From Psychrobacter celer (GTDB lineage Bacteria > Pseudomonadota > Gammaproteobacteria > Pseudomonadales > Moraxellaceae): a DNA stretch of 64,000 bases. The notes under the pieces are model-generated. The model was not told where the DNA came from. It made no database searches and saw only the letters and a program-made list of their open reading frames with translations. Position 1 is the first letter of the stretch. Every line of letters begins with the position of its first letter. The position numbers were made by a program, and so were the translations under genes. The DNA is taken from assembly GCF_016107555.1 (NCBI RefSeq), contig NZ_JABASU010000003.1, positions 62,001 to 126,000 on the forward strand, given 5' to 3'. Shown here piece after piece: positions 27,699 through 29,325 of this stretch.

Positions 27699-28139
27699 AT
27701 GTTTGGATTCGATATAGACTTAGACCTCATGCAGTACCACTTTTTCCAATTGGGTGTTGCCTTTATTTTATCGTTGCCCATCGCGCTCAACCGCGAGATG
27801 AAAGACAACGGCGCGGGGCTGAGGACGTTTCCGCTAGTGACGATTGCCTCTTGTGCATTTATGCTGGTGGGTATGGATATCTATGAATCAGCAGGTGAGG
27901 CGAGGATTATGTATGCCATCATCACGGGTATGGGCTTTATCGGCGGCGGGGCGATTTTTAAAAACGAGATGGGTTCAAAAGGCACTGCCACGGCGGCCAG
28001 CTTATGGAACACGGGCGCAATCGGTATTTCGGTGGCCTATGGTCGCTACGAGATTGCCATTATTCTGTCAGCGGTTGGTTTTTTGATTTTACAGTTTTCT
28101 GAGCCCTTTAAGAGCAAAAAAGAAAAAGACACGCCCTAA
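27699..28139 (+). CDS. MgtC/SapB family membrane protein
   Basis: A 146-residue protein with four to five hydrophobic helices and the signature ALNREMKDNGAGLRTFPLVTIASC (about 28-51) and GMGFIGGGAIFK (about 78-89). MgtC homologues modulate F-type ATPase or help growth in low Mg2+ and in hosts. The ATG has a strong GGAGGAG site. The last codons and stop fall in GACACGCCCTAA, which resembles the end of the 172-bp repeat family, although nothing else of the repeat is visible. Confidence 0.88.
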   Translation: MFGFDIDLDLMQYHFFQLGVAFILSLPIALNREMKDNGAGLRTFPLVTIASCAFMLVGMDIYESAGEARIMYAIITGMGFIGGGAIFKNEMGSKGTATAASLWNTGAIGISVAYGRYEIAIILSAVGFLILQFSEPFKSKKEKDTP

Positions 28140-28163: not shown

Positions 28164-28196
28164 AAAAAAAAGCCCACAGAGGAGGTGCTGTGGGCT
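28164..28196 (-). terminator. strong minus-strand terminator without an upstream protein gene
   Basis: A perfect 9-bp stem AGCCCACAG/CTGTGGGCT with an 8-base loop has its T-run (seven bases) only in the minus direction. There is no minus-strand protein gene between here and pgsA, so it should end a noncoding transcript. Confidence 0.7.
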
Positions 28197-28408
28197 GAGG
28201 AAAACTGGACAGGTAGCAAAATCGTGCTACAAGGCAGTGGTGGTATCTTGTTGTTGTTATGCGGTTATTACGTGTTTTCATCGACACTGCATGGCACTAG
28301 ACACATAAGTAGTATGCTTAAAAGTACTGTACATGGCCGTTTTGGTTCTTGTCTACAAAGACATCTAAAAAGATATCTTCGGTACTGACTATACTTACTA
28401 AGATTAGG
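28164..28408 (-). ncRNA. candidate small RNA
   Basis: Inferred from the orphan minus-strand terminator. A TATAAT on the minus strand at 28417-28412, with no good -35, would start a transcript near 28405 of about 240 bases. Read 5' to 3', the RNA would contain AACAACAACAAG (28259-28248), a small hairpin at 28230-28213 and then the terminator. Its loop CACCTCCT is complementary to Shine-Dalgarno sequences. AANAANAA is the motif bound by Hfq/Crc in pseudomonads. The boundaries are uncertain and no family is recognised. Confidence 0.4.
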
Positions 28409-28644
28409 GCAATTATAATCCGTTCAATAGGCAGATATATTTACTTACATATTTAAGTGTACAAGTGTTTTCGTTTGCATGGCTATCATAACGCAACTGA
28501 TGGTGATTTGGCTACGATTCGGCGATTTTGGTTACATGACATTACGTTTTATCTTTGGGGGCAGTATAAGAGATGGCATGACGGCTTGCCCGAAAAGTGC
28601 TAAGCTATCTGCCATTATTATGTCTATATAAAACTGGGTTTGCC

Positions 28645-29325
28645 ATGACTGAGAGTACGCATTTGCATACGCAGGAACCACCAAGTAAGCAAAACACCAA
28701 AAGTATTTTTAACTTGCCAAACAATCTGACCATTGCTCGTATCTTGATGATTCCGCTGTTTGTAGCGATTGCTTACTGGCCGCCAGCGATGGGAATTGGC
28801 ATGCCTGCCATCTCAGATAATGTCATCGCGCGGGTAGGAATGAGTGAGTTTAGCGATAGCTTATTGCGCCATTTATTATTGACGGGTGTGTTTATCTTAG
28901 CGGCGATTACCGATTGGCTAGACGGTTATCTTGCTCGTAAGCTCAATGTCACCTCAGCCTTTGGCCGCTTTTTGGACCCTGTCGCTGACAAGCTGATGGT
29001 GGCGGCAGCTTTGATTATCCTCGTGCAGTGGCACCCAAATATCATCATGGCCATCGCAGCGATTGTGATTATCTCGCGTGAAATCGCGGTATCGGCGCTA
29101 CGTGAGTGGATGGCTGAGCTGGGCAAAGGCACCAGTGTGGCGGTATCCTATGTCGGCAAGCTCAAGACCACCTTTCAGATGGTGGCGATTACCGTATTGC
29201 TGCTAAACTGGGAGTCGCTTGAAACCATCGGCTATGCGCTTATGGTGGCCGCCGTGGTTTTGACGCTATGGTCGATGATGATTTATCTAAAAGCGGCTTG
29301 GCCGTACCTCAAACAAAACGGCTGA
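28645..29325 (+). CDS. pgsA: CDP-diacylglycerol-glycerol-3-phosphate 3-phosphatidyltransferase
   Basis: Makes phosphatidylglycerophosphate from CDP-diacylglycerol and glycerol-3-phosphate, the committed step to phosphatidylglycerol and cardiolipin, in the inner membrane. The 226-residue protein has four to six membrane helices and the CDP-alcohol phosphotransferase motif DWLDGYLARKLNVTSAFGRFLDPVADK (D-G-x2-A-R...G...D...D, about 90-116). The first helix is preceded by NLPNNLTIARIL as in PgsA. I chose the second ATG, because the upstream frame adds 16 residues ahead of a polar N-terminus. Its ribosome binding site is weak. Confidence 0.93.
   Translation: MTESTHLHTQEPPSKQNTKSIFNLPNNLTIARILMIPLFVAIAYWPPAMGIGMPAISDNVIARVGMSEFSDSLLRHLLLTGVFILAAITDWLDGYLARKLNVTSAFGRFLDPVADKLMVAAALIILVQWHPNIIMAIAAIVIISREIAVSALREWMAELGKGTSVAVSYVGKLKTTFQMVAITVLLLNWESLETIGYALMVAAVVLTLWSMMIYLKAAWPYLKQNG

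Follow-up and report, generated by a model that had tools for sequence, protein, structure and literature searches.

The minus strand beside pgsA in Psychrobacter celer carries what is, with very little doubt, a real and conserved small RNA (sRNA) gene. The window, the whole 64,000-nt stretch of DNA that was analysed, had been marked at this place by a first-pass annotation as holding a candidate sRNA that either acts in trans or sequesters a protein. The first of these readings has strong support in the conservation and covariation of the RNA, in its conserved promoter region and in its constant position on the pgsA side, and we consider it probable that the gene produces a stand-alone Hfq-type trans-acting sRNA, which would pair with Shine-Dalgarno (SD) regions through a linker and a terminator loop.

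Read from 5ʹ to 3ʹ, the RNA consists of an A-rich tract, hairpin 1 (CACUG...GUAGC/GCUAC...CAGU), a linker, a terminator and a U tract, and its conserved core is the last ~95 nt of the predicted transcript. Direct reading of the sequence bore out the motifs and coordinates given earlier for the loop CACCUCCU, the A-rich motif AACAACAACAAG and the small hairpin, as well as the strong terminator facing left, which is conserved in 91 of 105 genus genomes. The terminator scan, which found the U tract on the minus strand only, was by itself no better than chance (1 terminator found versus 2.4 expected in shuffles), so that conservation was needed to decide whether the locus is real. The ORF scan (at least 40 aa) yielded a sole minus-strand ORF across the region, a 48-aa GTG ORF at 28287-28141 that reads through the terminator. 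When the 520-nt region was used as the query in a paralogue search of the P. celer genome, only the region itself was recovered, the next best match having an E value of 0.39. Rfam at gathering scores gave no family in the whole 64-kb window; when five loci were searched permissively, no matches but two to tRNAs reached the gathering score, and the only listed match on the sRNA was RyhB, with 25.2 bits versus 55 required (E 0.57).

Table 1. Features of the sRNA locus and of related loci (window positions unless a locus or contig is named)
Feature	Position	Strand	Basis or remark
sRNA gene, predicted P2 transcript of ~229 nt	28165..28393	-	Conserved in 91/105 genus genomes; P2 placed by comparison
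Terminator U tract, seven further T to 28164	28164..28170	-	Five T columns invariant, 48/48
Predicted intrinsic terminator stem-loop, 9 bp, AGCCCACAG-CACCTCCT-CTGTGGGCT	28171..28196 (28196-28171)	-	Sequence and covariation
Terminator loop CACCUCCU, anti-SD-like	28180..28187	-	CCUCC/CUCC conservation
Single-stranded linker UUUCCUC	28197..28203	-	89/89 loci; invariant columns in 48/48 aligned
Hairpin 1, CACUG...CAGU closing helix and inner GUAG/CUAC helix	28204..28239	-	Covariation
A-rich tract AACAACAACAAG, ARN-type Hfq motif	28247..28258	-	AAN-repeat enrichment
P2 -10, AATCTT (relatives TATCTT/TATAAA)	28400..28405	-	Comparison
P2 -35, TTGAAC, 16-nt spacer	28422..28427	-	Comparison; predicted start near 28393
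Box B region (TTGTAAGCAGATGTAAG in relatives)	28436..28450	-	Second half degenerate in the window
Conserved element ACACTTGTACACT upstream of P2	28456..28468	-	TTGTACAC in 30/48 loci; shuffles max 2
P1 -10, TATGAT	28485..28490	-	Comparison; also among consensus-scan sites
Box A tandem repeat ACGTAATGTCATGTAAC (GTAA-N6-GTAA)	28531..28547	-	Likely response-regulator operator
mgtC	27699-28139	+	Pfam MgtC
pgsA	28645-29325	+	Pfam CDP-OH_P_transf
Second conserved intergenic RNA, between PspC-domain gene and glyQ	L115 1505-1588 (G000:C11:156953-157036)		Linker UUUUCCUC before terminator
Partial sRNA-end copy, island of ~12 kb	L101 1501-1532 (G008:C1:209977-210008)
Partial sRNA-end copy, island of ~12 kb	L100 1501-1533 (G057:C14:50880-50912)

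The sRNA was matched by blastn (query 28440-28141) in 91 of 105 genus genomes, with the matches centred on the final ~100 nt of the RNA, and each of the 91 places was counted as a locus (L009-L099). Core and pgsA could both be placed in 89 of them, the exceptions L013 and L047 lying at contig ends. The sRNA is divergent from pgsA in every one of the 89; the distance from the linker start to the pgsA-proximal end of the cut-out stretches was 235-736 nt (median 468). A covariance model added three of the 14 blastn-negative genomes (G097, G062 and G074; E < 0.001), bringing the count to 94 of 105, and in these three the sRNA is likewise divergent from pgsA and the linker is present. In seven of the 11 remaining negative genomes, no TTTCCT followed by a T run was found within ~1.5 kb upstream of pgsA. 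The first-pass annotation had placed the sRNA between mgtC and pgsA and looked to that interval for conservation in other Psychrobacter. The placement holds in the window, but elsewhere pgsA alone is constant, and mgtC was found within ~1.5 kb of the sRNA in 31 of 91 loci; the terminator recurs through most of the genus, with CCUCC in its loop region in 78/89 loci and AAN repeats before the linker in 34/48.

Outside the genus, a family-wide model search of 299 genomes gave 112 matches at E ≤ 0.01, composed of the 94 in the genus and 18 others. Six of the 18 (L151, L152, L153, L155, L158 and L159) carry UUUUCCUCAGCCC and a terminator and are divergent from pgsA, and the anti-SD loop CUCACCUCCUG is kept in three of these six and absent in three. 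Five more (L146-L149 and L154) carry UUUCCUCA and a terminator with CCCCUCC or CACUCC at loci other than pgsA, and nothing similar was found beside pgsA of G184, G113, G173 and G169, four genomes with the UUUCCUCA RNA. These five matches lie near 1500-1570 of their loci in one other genus of the family, with hemA nearby in L147 and L154. At the remaining seven of the 18, there was no TTTCCTC-terminator at the match. Five weak model matches in genus g15 (E 0.0008 to 0.007) showed no TTTCCTC followed by a T run and were taken as chance. A long exact pattern gave 55 matches in a collection of 84,980 species, all in Psychrobacter, a pattern too strict to show absence elsewhere.

Within the RNA, the linker UUUCCUC was found in 89 of 89 loci and is invariant in the 48 non-redundant aligned sequences; the 89 loci came from matches mostly spanning the linker, and the three genomes found by the model alone carry it too. 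The stem-loop region has CCUCC in 78 and CUCC in 85 of the 89 loci, and the anti-SD loop is lost in L099, L107, L151, L158 and L159. The best-conserved pairing element would thus be the single-stranded linker rather than the anti-SD loop (89/89 versus 78/89), and the linker is most likely the putative pairing seed. Such conservation of unpaired bases exceeds what a terminator needs, and the exposed pyrimidine-rich segments look suited to covering the ribosome-binding sites of mRNAs.

To evaluate the structure, the fold drawn from one member (L014) was scored on the 48 non-redundant sequences. Changes on both sides were present in 14 of 18 pairs (5 of 9 in the terminator and 9 of 9 in hairpin 1). 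The covariation score was 0.248 versus 0.159 in shuffles, none of 500 being as high, and at most 0.096 for the slid structure, a control in which the choice of L014 favours the structure; the count of further pair types was equalled by 30 of 500 shuffles. The closing and inner helices of hairpin 1 were paired in 74% and 68% of cells, respectively. RNAalifold on the alignment recovered the terminator helix only, without hairpin 1, and by eye hairpin 1 is not recognisable in every species. When read on the minus strand, the inner eight terminator pairs contained 24 G-U versus 1 A-C cells, indicating that the RNA is the minus-strand one; at the outermost pair of the terminator, 18 of 48 sequences have A-C instead, and the hairpin 1 helices show no strand asymmetry (28 G-U versus 31 A-C cells, badly aligned rows included). 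The wobble pairs of the terminator therefore appear to favour the minus strand.

The region between the sRNA and pgsA contains two predicted promoters. The minus-strand sites from the consensus scan each scored 9/12, in keeping with the weak promoter described earlier, and P2 (TTGAAC-N16-AATCTT, 28427-28400) was absent from these sites. Across relatives, the P2-type -35/-10 pattern recurred in 21 of 48 loci at a spacer of 16 (shuffles: mean 1.1, max 3) and in 1-6 loci at other spacers, and a GTAA-N6-GTAA repeat was found upstream of the sRNA in 46 of 48 loci (40 shuffles: mean 0.78, max 3) and in 87 of 89 overall; the shuffles used for the GTAA, AAN and promoter motifs preserve dinucleotides and ignore kinship, so that significance is overstated, and the 48-locus set for the GTAA count differs by one from that for the alignment, AAN repeats and promoters (L094 versus L092). 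GTAA repeats with spacings of 4, 5, 7 and 8 occurred in 0-4 loci only. Two forms of the repeat exist, each at its own place: box A and box B. In relatives, box B directly precedes TTGAAT-N16-TATCTT, that is P2, and box A (ACGTAATNNCATGTAAC) was found together with a TATRAT-type -10 in 27 of 48 loci. The gap from box A to the P1 -10 is 28-30 nt in 26 of these 27 loci; that of the window, at 40 nt, is longer by roughly one turn of the helix, a comparison made with no shuffle control.

The predicted transcripts in the window are ~229 nt (P2) and ~314 nt (P1) long. In 15 hand-picked relatives, the P2 RNA would be ~90-145 nt and start closer to the A-rich tract. The stretch from P2 to the A-rich tract in the window (~28260-28393) is ~90-140 nt longer than in the 15 relatives read; it holds a strong AAGATATC/GATGTCTT hairpin and forms a lineage-specific 5ʹ extension. 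Reading by eye also gives a conserved candidate promoter for pgsA at 28578-28606 (ATGACG-N17-TAAGCT), which faces away from those of the sRNA.

As for the regulator, the classic RstA box is given as TACA-N6-TACA in the available part of PMC4117788. Box B matches it on the opposite strand, and box A in one half only. Only 16 of 48 loci (shuffles ≤3) had TGTA-N6-TGTA, the full RstA-type repeat, since box A begins CGTA, and not one of the 48 had TACA-N6-TACA on the sRNA strand. The P. celer genome encodes ten OmpR-family DNA-binding proteins, one of which is the BfmR orthologue (PDB 5hm6/6br7), and that BfmR regulates the sRNA is our guess; the bfmR promoter in the same genome has no GTAA-N6-GTAA box. 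A GTAA-N6-GTAA repeat also stands ~60 nt upstream of the tmRNA gene of this genome (gene at 1574-1932 on the plus strand, ARAGORN; repeat at L253 1501-1514, G000:C36:4213-4226).

In the mechanism that we propose, an OmpR/RstA-type response regulator would switch the sRNA on via the tandem GTAA-N6-GTAA operators in boxes A and B, RNA polymerase would begin at P1/P2, and the RNA is strongly predicted, from sequence and covariation, to end at the intrinsic terminator. Hfq would contact the U tail and the A-rich tract, and the linker UUUUCCUC and the terminator loop CCUCCU would pair with SD regions, blocking the translation of mRNAs. ARN or A-rich motifs are ligands of the distal face of Hfq, and hfq is present in the P. 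celer genome (G000:C24). In the stretch from 100 to 20 nt before the linker, at least three AAN repeats occurred in 34 of 48 loci (mean 8.2, max 16 in the same kinship-blind shuffles) and at least three ARN repeats in 40 of 48 (shuffles: mean 19.7, max 27). The perfect complement of the linker, GAGGAAAA, has 43 sites in the P. celer genome, six of them near a possible start codon. One candidate target, ilvC (ketol-acid reductoisomerase), was rejected: when 30 loci of the 60 matching genomes were examined, the start could be read in 25 genomes, and just 5 of these, P. celer included, had a perfect GAGGAAAA site.

A second conserved intergenic RNA with the same linker was found upstream of glyQ. 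Two of the 43 TTTTCCTC sites in the P. celer genome precede a strong terminator, namely that of the pgsA-side sRNA and that at G000:C11:156995, and three others have weak hairpin-T arrangements only (-6.4 to -8.0 versus -16.6 kcal/mol). The glyQ-side RNA consists of an A-rich start, a small hairpin, UUUUCCUCC and a terminator, and it was matched in 104 of 105 genomes at E ≤ 0.1 and in 88 at E ≤ 2.7e-12 (counted by hand). A linker common to two otherwise different conserved RNAs fits a shared, putative pairing function. The glyQ-side RNA may be either a transcript of its own or the 3ʹ end of the PspC gene. A leader peptide opposite this RNA was considered and dropped, its ATG not being conserved by eye.

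The 3ʹ end of the sRNA gene also coincides with the border of integrative islands. G008 and G057 contain a second copy of the terminator 3ʹ half only, at distances of ~11.7 and 12.5 kb; next to it is a tyrosine integrase with the Pfam domains Arm-DNA-bind_3, Phage_int_M and Phage_integrase. In both genomes, the sequence after the sRNA is island DNA common to the two islands, and the sequence that occupies this position in relatives free of the island (L054 and L061 in one case, L037 in the second) comes after the second copy. This comparison of flanks indicates that the islands integrate around CUCUGUGGGC..UUUUUU without disrupting the sRNA gene, and that the terminator is apparently used by islands like an att site in two genomes. 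Among 73 genus genomes with an integrase match (E ≤ 1e-60), the close type was confined to G008 and G057 (100 and 91% identity, next 63%), and among 30 integrase loci examined, these two showed a clear copy of the sRNA end. At a third integrase locus (L395 3942-3960, in G033), 19 nt match the end of the sRNA, a doubtful similarity (E 0.044). Tyrosine integrases favour the 3ʹ ends of tRNA, tmRNA and sRNA genes; the island sites are thus independent support for an RNA gene, and integrase use of the terminator would make this one more RNA gene known as an integration site.

The locus can be explained in other ways. In one of these, the terminator would just stop stray transcription coming from the region upstream of pgsA, without any RNA function; three results suit this explanation, namely that the terminator is, with the linker, the best-conserved part, that RNAalifold recovers the terminator helix alone and that the terminator scan was at chance level. 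The invariant unpaired linker and the conserved loop are, however, unnecessary for termination, and neither the second covarying hairpin nor the conserved operator and promoter region is accounted for, so we regard this explanation as unlikely. The other half of the earlier proposal, an RNA that would sequester proteins as CrcZ/CrcY do, its A-rich motifs titrating Hfq/Crc, draws on the enrichment of AAN repeats in 34 of 48 loci and on the presence of hfq. CrcZ, CrcY and CrcX carry several separate CA (AAnAAnAA) motifs, and the CrcZ family is included in the Rfam library. The P2 transcript has one A-rich tract made of two overlapping AAnAAnAA (one tract within 28165-28402), no Rfam family matched the window at gathering score, and the constraint is strongest on the pyrimidine linker and the terminator rather than on the A-rich tract; this part of the proposal did not hold up, and we judge it very unlikely.

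A functional RNA on the plus strand, either a CsrA/Rsm-type sponge or the 3ʹ UTR of mgtC, seems highly improbable. On that strand the same hairpin does display AGGAGG in its loop with GAGGAAAA alongside, giving GGA motifs, which CsrA binds, in both loop and linker, and the outermost pair becomes G-U in the 18 of 48 sequences where the minus strand has A-C. But the minus strand alone carries a U tract, its inner eight terminator pairs show 24 G-U versus 1 A-C cells, the conserved operator and promoters lie on the pgsA side and are oriented for a minus-strand RNA, and mgtC was found nearby in just 31 of 91 loci. For a small protein gene, the candidate is the 48-aa ORF, which is uninterrupted in the window; it reads through the terminator, and the lengths of loop, spacer and hairpin vary among relatives and not by multiples of three, which makes this explanation practically negligible. 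The trans-acting sRNA thus remains our preferred reading.

With its invariant linker of seven bases, its conserved anti-SD loop and its operator-like promoter region, this genus-wide RNA offers a clear and testable entry to post-transcriptional control in Psychrobacter. By title, the papers listed included none on Psychrobacter small RNAs and none on Moraxella catarrhalis sRNAs. Acinetobacter and Psychrobacter belong to the same bacterial family. More speculative, and in our view doubtful, is a wider picture in which a BfmR/RstA-type system would drive a dedicated anti-SD sRNA in Psychrobacter and related genera, with the glyQ-side look-alike sharing UUUUCCUC, and in which the sRNA gene would also be an att site for integrative islands. 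If true, the sRNA would form an arm of the envelope stress response, which is run through sigma-E in enterobacteria. According to the available text of PMC12153292, Acinetobacter baumannii has the genes of the RpoE regulon without control by an ECF sigma factor, and BfmRS is named among the other regulators that must govern its outer-membrane response; this report makes a BfmR/RstA envelope-stress reading of the sRNA worth testing.

We regard the sRNA as a fresh example of an already known type of regulator, and the likenesses drawn here concern function, parts or description, with no homology claimed for LhrC, NgncR_162/163 or RepG. Aar of Acinetobacter resembles it by description, being, in the accessible part of its report, an sRNA of ~100 nt whose two 3ʹ hairpins are best conserved and which represses by sequestering ribosome-binding sites; it differs in that the same text gives it as solely Acinetobacter (PMC11472050). 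RepG of Helicobacter pylori uses a similar part, since its terminator loop, rich in C and U, pairs with the G-rich leader of an mRNA, whereas its target as described there is a G-repeat of variable length (PMC8295292). NgncR_162/163 of Neisseria gonorrhoeae have similar parts, but are presented in the available text as two sibling sRNAs with a metabolic regulon (PMC9973317). As a working model, LhrC of Listeria monocytogenes comes closest, and the available part of PMC4132741 describes for it C/U-rich motifs in loops and between stem-loops and a promoter under the two-component system LisRK that answers envelope stress. C/U-rich motifs stand at the corresponding places of the Psychrobacter sRNA, in the loop (CUCC, 85/89) and between the stem-loops (linker, 89/89). 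The two also differ, since LhrC, in that account, has five copies, UCCC in both loops and the stretch, and a Gram-positive host, whereas the Psychrobacter sRNA has an A-rich tract and a putative regulator and putative targets (PMC4132741).
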